The notes beneath the pieces were generated by a model that was given only the letters and a program-made list of their open reading frames with translations, did not search any database and was not told where the DNA came from. Both the position numbers and the translations under genes were made by a program. Shown here one piece after another: positions 16,569 through 47,971 of a DNA stretch of 47,971 nucleotides. The stretch covers positions 19,578 to 67,548 of the forward strand of contig JAMPII010000001.1 of the NCBI GenBank assembly GCA_023662835.1, in the 5' to 3' direction. This DNA is from Muribaculaceae bacterium (GTDB lineage Bacteria; Bacteroidota; Bacteroidia; Bacteroidales; Muribaculaceae). How positions within the stretch are numbered: the stretch's first letter is position 1; each line of letters begins with the position of its first letter.

Positions 16569-18416
16569 TTATTTTAAAAGTTTGGCGTTGAACTCTTTCA
16601 GCGTGTCGAGCACATTCGAACGAACATGGATAAAGTTCTCGATGCCTGCTGCCTTGAGTTCTTCCATGCATGCGGGCGCACCGGCTACTACAAACTCGGC
16701 GCGGCCGTTCAGGTAGGCATAAGCCTTGGGCGCAAGTTCTGCATATTCGTCGTCGCTCGAGCAGAGAACAACAACGTCGGCCTCTTTTGCCAGTGCGGCG
16801 TCAACGCCCTCTTCAACACTGTTGAAGCCAAGGTTGTCTATAATTTCATAGCCTGCACATCCGAAGAAGTTGGTCGAGAACTGAGCGCGGGCAAGACGCA
16901 TGGCCAGATTGCCGATAGTCAGCATGAACACTTTCGGACGGTTGGCGGCGGCTTCAGTTTGCAAACGCAGTGCTTCGAAGTCGCTGGCAGCACGATTGGT
17001 GTTCAAGCCGCCGTTACCTTCAGCTTCACCGTGACCGCAACCGCAAGCGCAACCTGTTGTCTCTATTTTCGCAGCAGCTGTTTCGTTGATGTTGGGGTAC
17101 TGGTTTGTTCCAAGCAGAATTTCCTTGCGGCGGGCAACGTCGGTGTGGCGTTTAGCTGCCGTCTCGTTAACTGCGGACTGAACCGTACCGTTGTTAACGG
17201 CAGCCAAGAATCCACCGTTTTCTTCTGTTGCGAGGAAGAGCTTCCAGGCTTCGTTGGCTATTGACACTGTAAGTGTTTCAACATAATATGACCCACCGGC
17301 TGGGTCAACAACCTTGTCGAGGTGGCTTTCTTCCTTCAGAAGGAACTGCTGGTTACGTGCGATACGCTCCGAGAATTCATCGGGCTGCTTGTAAGGCACG
17401 TCGAAGGGGGTTGTTGTGATTGAATCGACTCCGGCAAGAGCGGCCGACATCGATTCGGTTTGCGAACGCAGCAGGTTAACGTGTGCGTCGTAGATTGTTT
17501 GGTTGTAGCGCGATGTGATAGCGTGAACCATCATTTTTGCCGATTCCTTTACGGCAGGTTTATATTGCTCGACTATCTGAGCCCAGAGCATGCGGGCTGC
17601 GCGGAATTTGGCAATTTCCATGAAATAGTTCGACGAAACCCCCATGTTAAACTTAACGCGGTTAGCTGCTGTGTCGGCATCGACGCCGGCATCGGTCAGC
17701 ATTGTCATCCACTGTGCGCCCCACGCCAGAGCGTAGCCAAGTTCCTGATATATATAGGCTCCTGCATCGGAAAGCATGAACGAGTCAACCGAAAACACAC
17801 GCAGGTTCTTGGCGGGCTTCACTGTCGCGAGCAGTTCGAGCGACAAGGCCTTTACATCGCCGGGGAATTCTGTGCCATGCTTCAAAGCCCGGCGCATCGG
17901 ATTGAAATCGATTGAACCCTTGAACACATCTAGCTTATCCTGCTCGGTCAGGTACTGTACCAAAGCCGCAGCCAATGTGTTAGCCTTACGAGGACAAGAT
18001 TTGAAGTTAACTTCTACTTTTTCCAGATCGATACCCTTGAGCAGAGCTGCCACCTCAGCAGCAGTTGTCAACTCAACATTGAATCCCAGCGAGGTCACGC
18101 CTTTAGCAACAGCATTGTTCGCAGCCTTGTTCGCGGCTGTAACTTCTTGCTCCAGAATTTCCTGACGTGTAAGCCAGTCGTTATTGTCGCGCGTACCGCG
18201 AACGTAAGGATACTGACCGGGGAGAGAGTCGGTTGTCTTCAGGTCGGCGATGTTTTCGGCTCTGTAAACCGGCTCGACGTTGAAGCCTTCATTTGTTCGC
18301 CATACCAATTTCTTGTTAAAGTCGGCGCCTTTCAAATCGGCCTCGACTTTGGTGCGCCACTCTTGGTAGGAGCACTCAGGAAACATGTCGAACAATTTTT
18401 CTTTTTTTTCTGCCAT
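16569..18416 (-). CDS. mutA: Methylmalonyl-CoA mutase, small subunit
   Basis: A 615-residue homologue of MutB without the DxHxxG cobalamin motif, as expected for the non-catalytic subunit of the heterodimer. Shared signatures include [17 protein letters not shown] and ESHLDKVVDPAGGSYYVETLT. The linker between barrel and B12-like domain (about residue 455) holds a dense cysteine/histidine cluster, CACGCGHG, which could bind a metal. I cannot say how common it is. The gene is transcribed first, from the promoter at 18487-18518. Confidence 0.95.
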   Translation of the reverse strand: MAEKKEKLFDMFPECSYQEWRTKVEADLKGADFNKKLVWRTNEGFNVEPVYRAENIADLKTTDSLPGQYPYVRGTRDNNDWLTRQEILEQEVTAANKAANNAVAKGVTSLGFNVELTTAAEVAALLKGIDLEKVEVNFKSCPRKANTLAAALVQYLTEQDKLDVFKGSIDFNPMRRALKHGTEFPGDVKALSLELLATVKPAKNLRVFSVDSFMLSDAGAYIYQELGYALAWGAQWMTMLTDAGVDADTAANRVKFNMGVSSNYFMEIAKFRAARMLWAQIVEQYKPAVKESAKMMVHAITSRYNQTIYDAHVNLLRSQTESMSAALAGVDSITTTPFDVPYKQPDEFSERIARNQQFLLKEESHLDKVVDPAGGSYYVETLTVSIANEAWKLFLATEENGGFLAAVNNGTVQSAVNETAAKRHTDVARRKEILLGTNQYPNINETAAAKIETTGCACGCGHGEAEGNGGLNTNRAASDFEALRLQTEAAANRPKVFMLTIGNLAMRLARAQFSTNFFGCAGYEIIDNLGFNSVEEGVDAALAKEADVVVLCSSDDEYAELAPKAYAYLNGRAEFVVAGAPACMEELKAAGIENFIHVRSNVLDTLKEFNAKLLK

Positions 18417-18486
18417 GATAAGTGGTATTAATTATTAGATTATTGGTCGCATAAGTTTTTAGGGTGGTAGCTCACCCATCATAGCA

Positions 18487-18518
18487 CAAAGTTACAAAAT
18501 AGCTGTATTCCAAACAAA
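18487..18518 (-). promoter_or_regulatory. mutAB promoter
   Basis: On the minus strand TTTG (18518-18515), a 20-bp spacer and TAACTTTG (18494-18487) form a near-ideal Bacteroidetes promoter. The start of transcription would be near 18480. The leader contains a small hairpin, GGGTG/CACCC (18462-18477). Confidence 0.8.
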
Positions 18519-18603
18519 TGTTTTATGAGGTTGTTTCGCATTGTCCATTTCCCACAAAATAGCTCTTGCCACGCCCGTATCTAACCTTCGCCACCTCACA
18601 ATT

Positions 18604-18643
18604 ACAAAAAAAATCGGGTGCCGGCATAACTTTGCCGACACCC
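18604..18643 (-). terminator. susCD operon intrinsic terminator
   Basis: On the minus strand GGGTGTCGGCA (18643-18633) pairs with TGCCGGCACCC (18626-18616), with 10 of 11 bases matched, followed by ATTTTTTTT. It lies about 220 bp after the susD stop, so the susD mRNA carries a long 3' untranslated region. Confidence 0.85.
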
Positions 18644-18696
18644 AACGTGCAACATGAATTATTTTATAAACTTCAAGTCTTTTTCATGTTCTAATT

Positions 18697-18861
18697 AGAG
18701 TATGTTTACTTTTGGCTTATGTTAAGATTTAACATGGATTTTTGAATATGTTTTTAACTTGAATGAAGGAATTATGGGGTTCCATAATGACTGAATGAAA
18801 GTTGGAAACAGGCCAAAAAGGCTGTTCTAAGATTTCATAAAGTTAAAAGTAAACACACTCT
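18697..18861. repeat. Long-range 17-bp inverted repeat at the susD stop codon
   Basis: AGAGTATGTTTACTTTT (18697-18713) and its complement at 18845-18861 match at 16 of 17 positions and enclose 131 bp of A+T-rich sequence. That interior holds smaller hairpins: GTTAA/TTAAC near 18721, ATTATGG/CCATAAT at 18771-18788, and AACAGGCC/GGCTGTT near 18807. The right arm ends in the first base of the susD stop codon. TAAT follows the right arm, and TAATT precedes the left. This is either mRNA 3' structure or a miniature inverted-repeat insertion. Confidence 0.6.
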
Positions 18862-20642
18862 TAATCCCAGCCGTCGTTCTGTGTAATTTCAGCAGCTGTG
18901 TTCGAGTCGATTACATTTTGTGGAATGGGGAAGAGTGTCCACGATGTAATCTTACCAGCTGTCGACTGGAAGCATCCGGGCCAAGCCTCCGACTGGTCGG
19001 CGATAGCCATAGCATGATCGTTGATGCTCTTTATGCCGTCCTGTCCCATACGAAGCAGTGTAGGCCAGCGCTGTTCCTCGAAGAAGAGTTCGCGTACGCG
19101 TTCGTCAAGAATGTACTGCAGTGTAATGTCACTTGCCTGAGCTCTTTTCGAGCACTGTGCGCGGTCGCGAAGAAGGTTGATATCATCAGCTGCTTTACCG
19201 GCATCACCGTTGCGAAGGTTTGCCTCGGCACGGAGAAGGATTGTCTCAGCCGAGCGGCATGCATACTGGTCGAGGTAGTATGAGCTGCGTTGCCAGCCTT
19301 CTGAAAGGTCGTCGTAATTGTAATCGTCGGCCGATGCCCATTTTTCCCATACAGGATAGTAACGATCGATACGGGTGGGGTCGAGCATATCGAGTGTTAC
19401 TACTTTGCCGTACATTGAGTGACGTTTGTCGATGCAGACAAAGTTACGGTGAATATTGCACTGTGCATTACGAATATCGTTTGCATAGTCGTCGGCCCAC
19501 ACTTCGTTGATTACATAGTTTGTCGGCGAGTTGCCTGAGATACCGCGGCCACCAACATATGCGCAGATGTTGCCACCGGGATAAACCGATTCGTCTGCTC
19601 CGTTCCACGGACAGTTTTCTCCATTTTCCTTGTACTGATCCTTCCAGTAAGCATCGCGTAGAACGGGCGACCAGTTACGGGGCGATTCGCTGTGGTTACC
19701 GCCATCTGTGTGATAAACATCATAATCGTGCTGGAACACCCAGAGCGATTCTGTGTTGCCACTTTCACGGTCCTGATTGTCGCGCTGGAATAGGTCGAAG
19801 AACACGTTACCGTCGGGACGGTAGGCATCTGTTCCGTTAACCTTCTTGTCGCTAGGGAATGCGCGCGAACCAAAACGCTGCTGCATCAGCGGGTGCATTG
19901 CAACAACTCTGTCGGCATATTCAATCGACTTGGCAAGCAAAGTTTTATCATTATTTTTAATTGTTGCCAGAGCCAAATATGCTTCAGCAAGGAAATGGTA
20001 GGCTGCGCCTTTAGCCACACGACCGGCTTCGTAGGGATATTCGGAGAGTGCGTTGGCCGCAATCTCAAGGTCGGCGATAGCCTGCTGATAAGTCTCTTCG
20101 CGTGAGGTGCGAACGAAATCGAGCTTAACACCCTGATAAAATTCTGTAACCAGGGGCACACCGCCGAACATTTCAGCCAAACGCAGATAACCGTAACCGC
20201 GCATGAACATCATTTCGCCATAAGCCTGATTCTTTTCAGCATCGCTTGACCATGCCAGGCCGGGCTTATTCACGCCCTCCAGCGACTGGTTGGCGTAGTT
20301 AACCAACTGGAACATGGCATCGTAGATTTTATTCGACTGGTTTGAGCTAGTACTCCAGTTGGCAAAAGTGCTTATGTAGTTACCGCTGGCGCGCCAGTTA
20401 GGGGTGTCGGCAACGTCGGCACCGAGACCTTTAAGAAAGTTGTCTACGTCGTACCAGTAACGGATATGCACGTACATATTGGTAATACAAGCCTTCACCT
20501 GATCCACCGTTTCATAGGCGTTGGTTGTGGTGTAGATTGTACGTGGCTTTTCGGTCAGGAATTCATCGTCGTCGCAAGCGGCTAACGAAGCTGACAAAGC
20601 TACACCGGTAGCTATATATAATGCTAATTTATTAAGTTTCAT
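18861..20642 (-). CDS. susD: SusD-family outer-membrane glycan-binding lipoprotein
   Basis: A 593-residue surface lipoprotein. The signal peptide ends in a lipobox (SASLAAC, Cys about 23) followed by acidic DDDE, the export signal typical of Bacteroidetes surface lipoproteins. The RagB/SusD tetratricopeptide fold follows, with family features such as FMRGYGYLRLAEMFGGVPLVTE (~150) and the C-terminal WTLFPIPQNVIDSN. It caps the SusC pore and captures the substrate. It starts 13 bp after susC. The substrate is unknown, because no glycosidase or regulator is adjacent. The symbol denotes the family, not starch specificity. Confidence 0.94.
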   Translation of the reverse strand: MKLNKLALYIATGVALSASLAACDDDEFLTEKPRTIYTTTNAYETVDQVKACITNMYVHIRYWYDVDNFLKGLGADVADTPNWRASGNYISTFANWSTSSNQSNKIYDAMFQLVNYANQSLEGVNKPGLAWSSDAEKNQAYGEMMFMRGYGYLRLAEMFGGVPLVTEFYQGVKLDFVRTSREETYQQAIADLEIAANALSEYPYEAGRVAKGAAYHFLAEAYLALATIKNNDKTLLAKSIEYADRVVAMHPLMQQRFGSRAFPSDKKVNGTDAYRPDGNVFFDLFQRDNQDRESGNTESLWVFQHDYDVYHTDGGNHSESPRNWSPVLRDAYWKDQYKENGENCPWNGADESVYPGGNICAYVGGRGISGNSPTNYVINEVWADDYANDIRNAQCNIHRNFVCIDKRHSMYGKVVTLDMLDPTRIDRYYPVWEKWASADDYNYDDLSEGWQRSSYYLDQYACRSAETILLRAEANLRNGDAGKAADDINLLRDRAQCSKRAQASDITLQYILDERVRELFFEEQRWPTLLRMGQDGIKSINDHAMAIADQSEAWPGCFQSTAGKITSWTLFPIPQNVIDSNTAAEITQNDGWD

Positions 20643-37017: not shown

Positions 37018-37052
37018 TTAGGGTCCTGAAATTTTATGATATGGGCCCTTAA
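37018..37052 (+). repeat. Copy 1 of a 28-bp GGGCCC-bounded dispersed element
   Basis: The core is GGGTCC (37021-37026), the 16-mer TGAAATTTTATGATAT (37027-37042) and GGGCCC (37043-37048), with TTA on the left and TTAA on the right. The 16-mer and right end are identical to the minus strand of the copy at 47387-47422. The left arm here has one substitution. It sits between the divergent promoters of the YtfE-LuxR gene and the acyl-CoA ligase operon, in no gene. Confidence 0.85.
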
Positions 37053-42309: not shown

Positions 42310-43878
42310 ATGAATACCGACAAATTTGAAATGGTAGCCAAAACCTTCCAAGGACTCGAAGATGTTTTGGCCCAGGAACTGGAACAACTCGGCGCCGAAA
42401 ACGTAAGCGCCGGCCGACGCATGGTTTCATTCTCAGGCGACAACGAAATTCTGTACAAAGCAAACCTATGCTGCCGTACAGCCCTGAGAATTCTGAAACC
42501 AATTTACAAATTCACGGCATCCGACCCCGACCGCCTCTATGAAATGACTAAAGAATTCGACTGGACTTCCGTGCTCAACCCACAAAAAACTTTCTCCATC
42601 GACCCCGTCGTAAACTCCGACTCGTTCAACCACTCACGCTACGTCACCTACCGCGTGAAAGATGCCATTGTCGACTTCTTCCAGGATCGTTACGGCCAAG
42701 GATGCCGTCCGGGCGTTCGCCTTCAGGACGCCGACGTGATGATAAACGTTCACATCGATGGCAACCGCGTGACCCTGTCGCTCGATTCATCAGGCGAATC
42801 GCTCCACAAACGCGGCTACCGCGTTGCTCAAACCGAAGCACCCATCAACGAAGTGCTCGCAGCCGGAATCCTGATGAAAACAGGATGGAAAGGCGAATGC
42901 CCCCTCGTCGACCCAATGTGTGGCTCCGGAACATTCCTCATCGAAGCCGCCCTGATTGCCGCAAACATCAACCCCGGTGTATATCGGAAACACTTCGCCT
43001 TCGAACAATGGCCCGACTTCGACGAAGAACTCTTCGAACAAATCTACAACGACGACTCGGGCGAGCGCGACGTCATTTGCAAAATTTACGGAGCCGACAT
43101 CTCGCCAAAAGCCATAGCCATAGCTCAGAAAAACATAAAACAAGCTGCCGTAGGAAAATACATAGATCTTGAAGTGAAACCGCTCTCTCAGTGGTTCGAA
43201 GCTCCACTCGACGGACTGCTCGTGACAAACCCTCCTTATGGCGAACGCCTGCAAGTTGACGACATCGATTCGCTATACTCAACGCTCGGAACAAAACTCA
43301 AAAAAGTGTTCCGCGGCTACACAGCTTGGGTAATCGGATATCAGGACGAGCAGTTCCGCGCCATCGGCTTGGCCCCTTCCTCGAAAACAGCGCTTTACAA
43401 CGGTGCCCTTGAATGCCAGTTGCGCGAATACCAGATTTTCGACGGCGATTACAAATCGTTCCGCCGCGATGGACACTCGCTCCGCTCATCGGCAACCGAC
43501 AACGGCGCAGCCATGGCTCGGAAGCAAAAACAACGTCGCCCAACCGACATAGAATGGCGCCGGGACGCACGCAAAAAAGGCTTCGGCGGTAAGGACGGCG
43601 ATTTCGAAACAGGCCGCCCCGGCTCAAAAAAAACACAACGTCGCGAACCAATCCACAACAACCGCGAAAAGCAGAAACCATTCGACCGCTTCAACTCAGG
43701 AAAAAAATTCCAGCGCCGTCAACCTGAACCGGAAACTCCCGAAATCGAATCTGAAAACCCGCTGGCAAAACGTCGCAACGAAAAAGCCCTCGAATCAATA
43801 ATCGGTCGCCGCCCGTCAATAAACCCCAACATGAAACATCGTGGCTGGCGCAAAAACAACAACGACAACAACGAATAA
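42310..43878 (+). CDS. Class I SAM-dependent RNA methyltransferase (RlmL/TrmN-like)
   Basis: A 522-residue enzyme with an N-terminal ferredoxin-like/THUMP region (1-160) and a Rossmann methyltransferase core: DPMCGSGTFLIEAALIAANINPG (~200), the SAM-binding YGADISPKAIAIA, and the NPPYGERL catalytic motif (~303) of N2-guanine or N6-adenine RNA methylases. It resembles the first domain of RlmL. From about residue 395 a 125-residue Lys/Arg/Gln-rich tail follows, which probably binds rRNA. The exact rRNA or tRNA target is not determinable. Confidence 0.9.
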   Translation: MNTDKFEMVAKTFQGLEDVLAQELEQLGAENVSAGRRMVSFSGDNEILYKANLCCRTALRILKPIYKFTASDPDRLYEMTKEFDWTSVLNPQKTFSIDPVVNSDSFNHSRYVTYRVKDAIVDFFQDRYGQGCRPGVRLQDADVMINVHIDGNRVTLSLDSSGESLHKRGYRVAQTEAPINEVLAAGILMKTGWKGECPLVDPMCGSGTFLIEAALIAANINPGVYRKHFAFEQWPDFDEELFEQIYNDDSGERDVICKIYGADISPKAIAIAQKNIKQAAVGKYIDLEVKPLSQWFEAPLDGLLVTNPPYGERLQVDDIDSLYSTLGTKLKKVFRGYTAWVIGYQDEQFRAIGLAPSSKTALYNGALECQLREYQIFDGDYKSFRRDGHSLRSSATDNGAAMARKQKQRRPTDIEWRRDARKKGFGGKDGDFETGRPGSKKTQRREPIHNNREKQKPFDRFNSGKKFQRRQPEPETPEIESENPLAKRRNEKALESIIGRRPSINPNMKHRGWRKNNNDNNE

Positions 43879-43918
43879 CCTATAACACAACAGGTTGTTA
43901 AAAAAAACTAAATCCGAA

Positions 43919-45208
43919 ATGAATAAAATCCACCGCATACTCCTCCTCGGCTCAGGAGGCCGCGAATCAGCTCTAGCCTGGAAAATCAGCCAAAGTCCGC
44001 TAACCGAACAACTGTTCATAGCCCCCGGCAACGGAGGCACAGGCGCTTACGGCACAAACGTAAACCTCAAACCTACCGACTTCAACGCTATCGAACAATT
44101 CGTGGCCGAAAATGCCATCGACATGATTGTTGTCGGAAACGAGGATCCGCTGGTGGCCGGAATCTACGACCGTCTATCCTCCGATAAACTACTCATTGTA
44201 GGCCCATCAAAAGCCGGTGCCGCGCTCGAAGGAAGCAAAGACTTCGCAAAACAGTTCATGGCACGCCACAACATCCCTACCGCCCGCTACAAATCGTTCA
44301 CCGCCGACAACATTGACGAAGGTTACGCATTCCTCGAATCGCTCAAAGCACCCTACGTGCTCAAAGCCGACGGCCTGGCCGCAGGCAAAGGCGTGCTAAT
44401 TCTTCCAACCCTTCAAGAAGCAAAAGACGCCCTGAAAGAAATGCTATCCGGAATGTTCGGACAATCATCGGCTACAGTAGTCATCGAAGAATTCCTCACA
44501 GGAATCGAATGCTCAGTCTTCGTACTGACCGACGGCGAAAACTACCGCGTTCTCCCCGTAGCCAAAGACTACAAACGAATCGGTGAAGGCGACACCGGAC
44601 CAAACACCGGCGGCATGGGCGCCGTAAGCCCTGTCCCATTCGCCAATCAGGAATGGATGGAAAAAGTGCGCACCCGAATAATCGAGCCAACCGTTAAAGG
44701 ACTGAAACAAGAAAACATCACATACCGCGGCTTCATATTCCTCGGCCTCATAAATGTTGACGGCAACCCGATGGTAATCGAATACAACGTGCGCATGGGC
44801 GACCCCGAAACCGAAGCCGTTATGCTGCGTGTCGATGCCGACCTCGTTGCCCTTATGGAAGCCGCCGCAAAAGGTAACCTTGGCAACCTGCCGCTCAACC
44901 ACGACCCACGCACAGCCGTAACCGTAATGATGGTGTCGGGAGGCTACCCGGGCTCCTACGAAAAAGGCAAAATCATCACTGGCATCAACAACGTAAACCC
45001 CGACGAAAGCATCGTATTCCACGCCGGCACAAAACTCAACGACGACCAATCTGTCGTAACATCCGGAGGCCGGGTGCTCGCCGTCAGCTCCTACGGCACC
45101 GATATCGCCGACGCCCTGGCCCACAGCTTCAACTCAGTTGAAAAAATCAACTTCGACGGAGCATACTACCGCCGCGACATCGGCCGCGACCTTATGGCTC
45201 TTCTCTAA
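43919..45208 (+). CDS. purD: Phosphoribosylamine-glycine ligase
   Basis: A 429-residue ATP-grasp enzyme joining glycine to phosphoribosylamine in purine synthesis. It opens ILLLGSGGRESALAWKISQS, with GNEDPLVAGIYDRL (~76), VLKADGLAAGKGVLI (~145), PNTGGMGAVSP (~230) and VIEYNVRMGDPETEAVMLR (~293). ATG 43919 is preferred over an upstream in-frame TTG (43895), because the family begins at the MNKIHRILLLGSGG strand. It is flanked by the methyltransferase and a membrane protein in one block. Confidence 0.97.
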   Translation: MNKIHRILLLGSGGRESALAWKISQSPLTEQLFIAPGNGGTGAYGTNVNLKPTDFNAIEQFVAENAIDMIVVGNEDPLVAGIYDRLSSDKLLIVGPSKAGAALEGSKDFAKQFMARHNIPTARYKSFTADNIDEGYAFLESLKAPYVLKADGLAAGKGVLILPTLQEAKDALKEMLSGMFGQSSATVVIEEFLTGIECSVFVLTDGENYRVLPVAKDYKRIGEGDTGPNTGGMGAVSPVPFANQEWMEKVRTRIIEPTVKGLKQENITYRGFIFLGLINVDGNPMVIEYNVRMGDPETEAVMLRVDADLVALMEAAAKGNLGNLPLNHDPRTAVTVMMVSGGYPGSYEKGKIITGINNVNPDESIVFHAGTKLNDDQSVVTSGGRVLAVSSYGTDIADALAHSFNSVEKINFDGAYYRRDIGRDLMALL

Positions 45209-45219
45209 TAAGAGCACAC

Positions 45220-46200
45220 ATGAACGACGGCGAAATAACCCGTTTCCTCCATTCGCGCTACGGCTATCTGCTAATGGCATTGATAGCCGTGGCCGCCACT
45301 TTCCACGCATTTTCGTTAGGAAGCTTCCTCAATAGCACCTCCACGCAGGGGATTCTCGGAATTACCCCGGCCAACGATTGGCTGGCCCCGGGAACCGCAC
45401 GCCCCTTATGCGGCACATTGCTGACGCTAGTTATTTCAGCCATGCTCGTAATCGTAAACAGCCGCTACAACATAATCCGCGGCCTCTCGATGCTATACGC
45501 CGGCATTTTTCTGATATTCTCAGCCGCCGTCCCATCATTGTCGTGCAATATCAACTCAGGCTCATTCATGGCTCTAGCATGGGTACTCACGCTTATTCCG
45601 CTATTTTCAGCCTACCAGCGCCAACTGGCAACCCGCAGAATTTTCCTAACCATTTGCACTGCCACAGCCGCCACACTTATCTTCATGCCACCCCTGGCCA
45701 TCATCTACATTCCCATTTACATTGCAGGCTGCGTTCAAATGCGCTGCCTGAACCTGAAAACAGCCCTGGCTGCTATTATCGGCATCGTCACACCAATATG
45801 GATTATATGGGGATTCGGCCTGACCGATGTGCAAACATCATCATTTGCGCTTAACAATCTTTTTTCACCACTGAAATTTGCCACCCCCGCCCTAAACGCC
45901 ACCGTCCTTACAACAATCGCCCTCGGAGGCATATTCGCCCTCTTCAATCTTATAAAGATATACAACTACAACGGTCGGGCGCGCGCCTACAACGGTTTCA
46001 TCACAATCACTGCCGTCGCCACAATCCTTCTGTTGCTCATTGACTCAGCCAACACCCTGGCCTATCTACCCCTGCTAAACGTGTGCGCAGCCATACAAGC
46101 CGGCCACTTCTTCTCCATTAACAACCGCCGCCGCTCCTACGTGCCTATTCTGATAATCATCGCTATTTATATCGCGCTATATGTCTGGAACATCGTTTGA
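45220..46200 (+). CDS. Polytopic membrane protein of unknown function
   Basis: A 326-residue protein with about eight to ten hydrophobic segments covering most of its length, a short cytoplasmic N-terminus (MNDGEITRFLHSRYGYLL), and a positively charged stretch NNRRRS before the last helix. I do not recognise a catalytic motif. It lies 11 bp after purD and overlaps pdxB by 20 bp, a conserved-looking tight arrangement that suggests co-translation. Similar integral membrane proteins of unknown function sit beside purD/pdxB in other Bacteroidales, as far as I recall. Confidence 0.8.
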   Translation: MNDGEITRFLHSRYGYLLMALIAVAATFHAFSLGSFLNSTSTQGILGITPANDWLAPGTARPLCGTLLTLVISAMLVIVNSRYNIIRGLSMLYAGIFLIFSAAVPSLSCNINSGSFMALAWVLTLIPLFSAYQRQLATRRIFLTICTATAATLIFMPPLAIIYIPIYIAGCVQMRCLNLKTALAAIIGIVTPIWIIWGFGLTDVQTSSFALNNLFSPLKFATPALNATVLTTIALGGIFALFNLIKIYNYNGRARAYNGFITITAVATILLLLIDSANTLAYLPLLNVCAAIQAGHFFSINNRRRSYVPILIIIAIYIALYVWNIV

Positions 46201-47209
46201 AAAAGTTATTGTCGAAAGCAAAATACCCTTCATAAAAGGCCTACTCGAACCATATTTTAACGTCGTCTATCTCGCCCCCGATGAAATCACACCACAAGCC
46301 ATAGCCGATGCCGACGCAATGATTATACGCACCCGCACCCACTGCGACCAACACCTGCTCAGCAATTCGCGCTGCCGCTTTATAGCAACAGCTACCATAG
46401 GCACCGACCACATCGACCTCGACTACTGCGCCGACAACAACATCACCGTTGCCAACGCCCCGGGATGCAACGCACCCGCCGTCGCACAATACGTACTCTC
46501 AACAATCGGCCTCTGGATGCAGCAAAACAACCGCCTTCCCAGCCAAACAACCCTCGGCGTTGTCGGCCTTGGCCACGTCGGAAGCATCGTCGCACAATGG
46601 GCTCAAAACAACGGGATAAACGTGCTATGCTGCGACCCCCCACTGCAACTGTCAGGTAACAGCAACCGCCAATTCCATCCGCTCGAAACCCTCGCCGCCC
46701 AGTGCGACATAATCACATTCCACACCCCGCTGACGCGCCAGCTTCCACATCCCACGTTCCACCTTGTCAACCCGGCGTTCATCAACAAACTCGCAAAACA
46801 ACCACTAATAATAAACAGCGCACGCGGCTCCATCGTCGACACCGACTCACTCATTCAAGCCTACGACAACGGCAACATAAGCGCCCTGGCAATCGACTGC
46901 TGGGAAAACGAACCAAACATCAATCAACAATTGCTCAAACGAGCATTCATCGCCACGCCGCACATTGCCGGCTACTCCATCGAAGGCAAAAAGCGCGCAA
47001 CACAAATGGCAATAAACGCCCTTACAACCAACTTCGCCAAGCCCCCAGTCACTTTGGCCGAACCCGCACCAAAACGCCACAAACAGGCTCCATCACTCAC
47101 CCACATCATCAAATCCTACAACCCCACAGCCGACACCCTGCAACTAAAAGCCTCACCATCCTTCTTCGAAACCCTGCGCAACAACTACAACTATCGCCCC
47201 GAACCCTAA
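46181..47209 (+). CDS. pdxB: Erythronate-4-phosphate dehydrogenase
   Basis: A 342-residue D-2-hydroxyacid dehydrogenase of pyridoxal phosphate synthesis, oxidising 4-phospho-D-erythronate. The N-terminus KVIVESKIPFIKGLLEPYF is diagnostic of PdxB. The NAD-binding GLGHVGSIVAQWA lies near 125. The catalytic triad is visible as Arg in NSARGSIVD, Glu in DCWENEP and His in TPHIAGYS. It is shorter than E. coli PdxB (378), with a reduced C-terminal dimerisation domain. It overlaps the membrane-protein gene by 20 bp and converges on the broken gene. Confidence 0.94.
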   Translation: MSGTSFEKVIVESKIPFIKGLLEPYFNVVYLAPDEITPQAIADADAMIIRTRTHCDQHLLSNSRCRFIATATIGTDHIDLDYCADNNITVANAPGCNAPAVAQYVLSTIGLWMQQNNRLPSQTTLGVVGLGHVGSIVAQWAQNNGINVLCCDPPLQLSGNSNRQFHPLETLAAQCDIITFHTPLTRQLPHPTFHLVNPAFINKLAKQPLIINSARGSIVDTDSLIQAYDNGNISALAIDCWENEPNINQQLLKRAFIATPHIAGYSIEGKKRATQMAINALTTNFAKPPVTLAEPAPKRHKQAPSLTHIIKSYNPTADTLQLKASPSFFETLRNNYNYRPEP

Positions 47210-47229
47210 CGCAAATCATCACATATTCA

Positions 47230-47711
47230 TTATTTCGCCACGTTCCAATCAAAGCTGAACGTGCTGTCAATCACCGGGACACACACATTCAAGCCCTTTC
47301 CTTTCTTCCTCTTAACGTTCATATACCCAACTATCGCATCCTGCGGATATATCGTGTTCGTCTTCAAATACCCCTGCTTGCGCACATTAAGGGCCCATAT
47401 CATAAAATTTCAGGGCCCTTAAAAGCATCACTCCTCGTCAGCAACGTACAATACACACTGTCAGGATAAAATATTACAGGTTCTTTCCCTAGATTCATAA
47501 TAAATGTATCCAGCCGATAGTACTTCCCATAATCATCGTCATCTTCGTTACACGATAGCCCTACAACAATATCATTCTTATTAAGATAGGCCCAAAATTT
47601 GCCATCATTATATTCCGTCAGAACCGTATCACACTCCGGATACAAAAAAGTTTGAGCGTTGGCAATCACCGAAAGCCAAACCAAAATCACAAAACAAAAT
47701 ATATGTTTCAT
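47230..47711 (-). pseudogene. Small secreted protein gene split by a 32-bp insertion
   Basis: The frame from ATG 47711 has a Sec signal peptide (MKHIFCFVILVWLSVIANAQ) and stops at 47400, its last six codons (KGPEIL) coming from the GGGCCC repeat. A second, correctly framed stretch continues at about 47386-47230 (VRKQGYLKTNTIYPQDAIVGYMNVKRKK ... VIDSTFSFDWNVAK-stop). Deleting 32 bp (the 28-bp core plus one TTAA) gives ...SDAFNVRKQGY..., an unbroken frame of about 149 residues. The parent is a small exported protein of unknown function. Confidence 0.75.
47387..47422 (-). repeat. Copy 2 of the GGGCCC-bounded element, with TTAA on both sides
   Basis: On the minus strand: TTAA, GGGCCC, TGAAATTTTATGATAT, GGGCCC, TTAA. 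The ends form a perfect 10-bp inverted repeat (TTAAGGGCCC/GGGCCCTTAA) around 16 bp. It interrupts a secreted-protein gene. Excising the core plus one TTAA restores the frame, as expected for an insertion duplicating a TTAA target. Confidence 0.85.
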
Positions 47712-47721
47712 TTAACAACTG

Positions 47722-47752
47722 CAAAATTATAATAAACCGGAGTAACATTCAA
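47722..47752 (-). promoter_or_regulatory. Promoter of the split secreted-protein gene
   Basis: On the minus strand TTG (47752-47750), 20 bp, then TAATTTTG (47729-47722). The transcript would start about 4 bp upstream of the ATG, so the leader would be very short. Confidence 0.45.
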
Positions 47753-47915
47753 CAAAACAACCGTTACCACCAAATGTCACAACCATTCCGCCTCTAAGAT
47801 ACGAATTTCAAGCAACAATTCAAATATTTCACACCATTCACGCCTTTAGGGGCACAGCCTTCCGCGTTCGCATCATAACACCAGTCAGTAGTAGGAACAT
47901 TCGCCGGCTATACAT

Positions 47916-47957
47916 AAAAAAAAGCGATTGCTGCGGTGTTGTCCGTCAGCAATCGCT
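47916..47957 (-). terminator. Intrinsic terminator of a gene beyond the right edge
   Basis: AGCGATTGCTG (47923-47933) and CAGCAATCGCT (47947-47957) are a perfect 11-bp inverted repeat. Read on the minus strand it is followed by eight T. It must end a minus-strand transcript entering from the right. The stretch 47753-47915 between it and the next promoter holds no gene I can support. Confidence 0.85.
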
Positions 47958-47971
47958 GTGAAGGAGGCGGT

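Follow-up and report, generated by a model that had tools for sequence, protein, structure and literature searches.

Solo 28-bp repeats and an IS5-type MITE family in a Muribaculaceae genome

Closest described systems

When an inverted-repeat element is lost, short direct repeats near its ends can leave a small remnant of fixed size. The "nearly precise excision" of Tn10 is the model for such a remnant; the case presented here differs from it in concerning a 160-bp MITE, 5-bp repeats and many loci. Small dispersed repeats are a further point of comparison. Those of Nostoc, reportedly treated by Elhai in 2008, are said to be 20-30 bp long, dispersed and probably mobile, as the present repeat is; however, the Muribaculaceae case also shows a parent MITE family, a transposase remnant and a 3-bp duplication. 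The Nostoc repeats are mentioned in one section of PMC2884548. REP singlets, in the part of PMC3116915 that treats them, are likewise regarded as paired elements reduced by deletion or decay, but the Muribaculaceae case has a DDE-type transposase and a target duplication.

The IS1031 group of the IS5 family is described, in a section of PMC12016507, as preferring TNA and producing exclusively 3-bp repeats. This group and the MITEs derived from it share several features with the present family: TAA or TTA flanks with a 3-bp duplication (at locus L002), a tip that starts with GGG, and a transposase remnant, related to PF01609/PF13340 proteins, located beside the repeat. However, the solos have one repeat instead of two, and their own genome yielded no intact parent. 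The known kind of element here is the IS5-type MITE, and what is new is its solo end repeats; no paper describing solo MITE ends from Muribaculaceae came up in the literature searches. Very short dispersed repeats, often of unknown origin, are linked in this way to a transposon of a named kind, which has forms of 160, 62-63 and 28 bp in one genome, and the minimum size of a DNA transposon becomes a directly testable question.

The 28-bp element, its copies and the parent MITE family

The window is the whole stretch of DNA that was analysed, 47,971 bp long (C11:19578-67548), from a genome of 2.18 Mb in 67 contigs; its open reading frames were listed for 17700-20000 and 43000-47971 only. The minus strand of 47387-47422 reads TTAA-GGGCCC-TGAAATTTTATGATAT-GGGCCC-TTAA. 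The features concerned are the following.

47391-47418, minus strand: solo 28-bp terminal repeat GGGCCC-TGAAATTTTATGATAT-GGGCCC (from the sequence and the genome copies)
47387-47390, no strand: TTAA flank; the minus-strand reading puts TTA against the element (flank reading)
47419-47422, no strand: TTAA flank; the minus-strand reading puts TAA against the element (flank reading)
47421-47711, minus strand: upstream piece of the split gene, 97 codons, the start resembling a signal peptide (ORF listing and homologue matches)
47230-47388, minus strand: downstream piece of this gene, 52 codons plus a stop (homologue matches)
37021-37048, plus strand: second solo in the window, GGGTCC-core-GGGCCC, flanks TTA|TTA (copy classification and flanks)

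The element provides the stop codon for the frame beginning at 47711. Beyond it an open frame, offset by two, runs on to 47230, and the frame of the gene rejoins once 28+4 bp are taken out. The structure, the premature stop and the offset frame had all been described in an earlier note made from the sequence alone, and all were found. The scarcity of GGGCCC was tried as a clue and rejected: the window has 3 occurrences against 10.5 in a dinucleotide shuffle, but 3 against 2.2 expected from its 4- and 5-mers. A different MITE-like element of 163 bp lies in the window at 18698-18860, with inverted ends GAGTATGTTTAC / GTAAACACACTC and flanks TTA|TTA; its tip resembles the IS ends at locus L126 of genome G009.

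The genome, which the note had suggested searching, holds nine exact copies of the 28-mer, far beyond chance. The 23-bp core occurs in 100 copies with up to three mismatches, and 99 of these were classified together with their flanks (two further rows of the classification table are spurious). Inner-to-outer end repeats of longer elements account for 79 of the 99, the complete ones being 160-bp MITEs, and two are ends of 62-63-bp elements (L077, L087). Fourteen are clean solos, that is, a single 28-bp repeat in unrelated flanks, and the remaining four (L063, L065, L066, L083) are solos in a decayed or half state.

The complete 160-bp elements L069 and L081 have the interior CTGGGGTCGCTGG...CCAGCGACCCCAG, L084 is a further 160-bp form, and a second type of MITE interior starts with CTGGGGCGGCTCCGGGCGAGTG. 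Many MITE copies sit at contig ends or next to 100-N gaps, so that their interiors are lost. Matching terminal inverted repeats are present at both ends of L069, L081 and L084 and of the 62-63-bp elements L077 and L087; the 28-bp solo does not have two such repeats, since it consists of a single core with only the 6-bp tips inverted. The two 62-63-bp elements are built of two repeats around CTGGGG, and the tip change of L087 is identical at both ends.

At C23 and C30 a transposase fragment adjoins the repeat. Taken alone the fragment has no Pfam or NCBIfam match; it shares 46% identity with open frames in G025 and G001, 257 and 267 amino acids long, and the G001 protein, the one relative's protein that was scanned, matches PF01609 and PF13340. 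IS-like ends were found at seven of the ten related loci scanned; their repeats are TTA, TAA or GTA and their tips start with GAG, GAC or GGC, a matching 3-bp repeat being required by the scan. A PF13340 search of the own genome found no intact parent IS. The transposase remnants fused to the repeat, together with the TTA/TAA repeats of the relatives, point to a putative parent IS of the IS5 family, similar to IS1031. At several loci in G001 (L133, L134, L136, L137) an IS5-type IS is immediately adjoined by a short element whose tips match its own. The earlier note was right to see a transposon-derived sequence, far smaller than a normal MITE, that splits a gene for a secreted-type protein, and the sequence is present at many sites. 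What it read as a very small mobile or recombinase-made insertion is, however, no isolated novelty but an end repeat belonging to an IS5-type MITE family.

Target-site duplication and the interrupted gene

The flanks of the clean solos are TAA|TAA in seven, TTA|TTA in three, TTAA|TTAA in two (the window copy and L007) and TTA|TAA in two. A 3-bp flank match was found in six of the nine two-ended MITEs, the others being L012, L062 and L084. With solos and MITEs pooled, 16 of 23 flanks match (P = 0.047), and for the solos alone 10 of 14 (P = 0.09), under the null that each side is TAA or TTA at random and half are expected to match. The flanks alone are therefore weak evidence of duplication.

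Firm evidence comes from L002, where 31 bp (28+3) are missing from each of the 11 homologous stretches in the alignment, some of them paralogues. For nine of these, from eight genomes of the same genus, BLAST alignments span the site with 67-77% identity, and the other two align on one side only. This empty site indicates that the usual duplication of the solo family is 3 bp (TAA/TTA). At the other 13 clean-solo sites no cross-site alignment was found in other species, except in G011, which has the same solo. The 4-bp TTAA target duplication proposed in the earlier note is ruled out as a general rule by the 3-bp flanks, identical in 10 of the 14 clean solos, and by the empty site of 28+3 bp. 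The solo at L082 is located in the loop of a terminator-like hairpin, and its flanks, when joined, give a continuous hairpin of -20.4 kcal/mol.

The copy at the window locus is atypical: the triplets adjacent to the element are TAA on one side and TTA on the other, with no 3-bp flank match. The upstream piece of the gene matches 14 of 397 family genomes, the own genome included, and each of the 11 homologous loci tested has matches to both pieces. However, all eight aligned single proteins hold 60-88 extra residues between the two matches (78 in five), and L203, L204 and L207, left out of this alignment, have by arithmetic about 35-75 extra residues in their first domain. The later tandem domains of L199, L204 and L207 are without the block, and by arithmetic their length equals that of the rejoined gene within 2 residues. 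Because of these tandem domains in three loci, a clean 4-bp insertion and a deletion between two target sites are about equally likely here.

The clean insertion, with a 4-bp TTAA duplication in a gene naturally without the middle block, would fit either origin of the solos discussed below. The rejoining of the frame over 28+4 bp and the tandem domains favor it, while the longer aligned proteins and first domains stand against it, as do the 3-bp repeats of most other clean solos and the exclusively 3-bp repeats ascribed to the IS1031 group in the section of PMC12016507 cited above. A further point against it is L007, the other TTAA|TTAA solo, where a start-codon region is joined to a Cthe_2159 piece that starts at profile position 122 of 262; the junction point corresponds to residues 451-490 of four homologues. 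This looks like a deletion junction, although the left piece may be another gene. The symmetrical TTAA around the scar is by itself no proof of duplication.

Origin of the solos and their distribution

We favor, with a probability of about 0.5, the reading in which the 28-mer represents a single terminal inverted repeat from a MITE family of IS5-type (IS1031-like) descent and the solos are remnants of near-precise MITE loss. The outer tip of the repeat is GGGCCC, and its inner edge carries GGGCC. If a deletion fused this inner GGGCC with the GGGCCC tip of the opposite end, the rest of the MITE would be lost and the product would be exactly GGGCCC-N16-GGGCCC between the target half-sites. For L069 and L081, joining the GGGCC copies at 23 and 155 would produce a remnant of precisely 28 bp; L069 also has the mirror pair. 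Such a join would explain the change of the last base, GGGCCG to GGGCCC. We infer both this deletion step and its driver, which may be transposase or replication slippage. Near-precise loss is supported by the 79 of 99 classified copies that form ends of longer elements carrying this repeat, by the TAA/TTA flanks common to solos and MITEs, and by the transposase fragments next to the repeat at C23 and C30. The origin of REP singlets by deletion within REPINs, stated in the part of PMC3116915 cited above, is also counted in its favor.

Against near-precise loss, the same MITEs contain longer repeats, AAATTT (6-7 bp) and the GGGCCC tips (6 bp), which would leave 33/34 or 6 bp. No 34-bp remnant was found in the part of the own genome searched, nor among the 100 core matches, whose limit of 3 mismatches it would satisfy by our comparison, and no 6-bp remnant in the part searched. 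The absence of a 33/34-bp remnant despite the AAATTT repeats suggests that the process is guided, by transposase or by hairpin geometry, or that the 28-mer itself spreads. The outer 22 bp are free of mutation in 10 of 14 solos and in 61 of 79 MITE ends. By this measure the solos are not older than the MITE ends, which also counts against near-precise loss, and age does not separate near-precise excision from self-spread. In addition, the other-genus solos are isolated, with no partner element nearby.

It is possible, but in our view doubtful, that the 28-mer is itself an active unit: having arisen once, by deletion, it would be mobilized in trans by an IS5-type, IS1031-like transposase cutting the GGGCCC tips around one 16-bp core, would spread among the genera of the family and could cause adjacent deletions. 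No DNA transposon with a target duplication would then be smaller. The single size class (14 clean copies) with GGGCCC at both tips, the clean 28+3 insertion at L002 and the absence of remnant sizes other than 62-63 bp agree with such movement, as do L140, L155 and L158 in other genera, which are flanked on each side by TTA/TAA and for which about 3 kb of sequence shows no convincing second end. However, one 16-bp core in one orientation makes the second end just a 6-bp tip, tip variants are no rarer in solos than in MITE ends, and 28 bp is very short for the synapsis of two ends. A functional hairpin (a terminator, or an RNA or protein site) in place of transposon debris is very improbable. 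The 28-mer does fold (-6.8 kcal/mol as DNA, z -2.3), L082 sits in the loop of the terminator-like hairpin described above and L088 has matching alterations in both tips; but the repeat lies in coding sequence at L002 and in the window, four of the five clean solos with altered tips are altered on one side only, and its presence is limited to two of 99 relatives, the own genome included. Still less credible is an artefact in which full MITEs were collapsed to 28 bp by short-read assembly. Most MITE interiors are indeed missing at contig ends or N gaps, but the solo junction TTTCA-GGGCCC-TAA is absent from the MITE, and a separate assembly, a G011 contig, has the L006 solo in a stretch 99.92% identical over 5219 bp.

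The two genomes with the 28-mer, within 3 mismatches, among the 99 relatives searched are the own genome and G011, which belongs to the same genus. The shared stretch (L113 3404-8622 against L114) carries ORFs that we take to be thymidylate synthase (thyA) and dihydrofolate reductase (folA-like), and at the L002 site G011 is 77% identical. Horizontal transfer of the shared solo was rejected on the contrast between the two identity values, and the 5.2 kb of G011 are probably misbinned DNA of the own species. Carriage by phage or plasmid was also rejected, as there was no exact match in viral contigs and no MITE match in plasmids or phages.

The core was found in 13 of 397 family genomes, the own genome included; a reversed control pattern matched two genomes, once each. 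Among the 16 listed core loci outside the own genome, nine (in five genomes) look real by their tips, one is the G011 copy, and six look like chance and were rejected as true copies (L141, L142, L143, L147, L150, L152); sizes and tips of the other-genus copies were judged by eye. L140, L155 and L158 may be old remnants or travelling solos. In another genus, at L144 (about 1470-1550), a core copy is enclosed by a longer, imperfect inverted repeat (AGGTTTA...TAAACCT), an arrangement resembling a terminator with the core in its loop.
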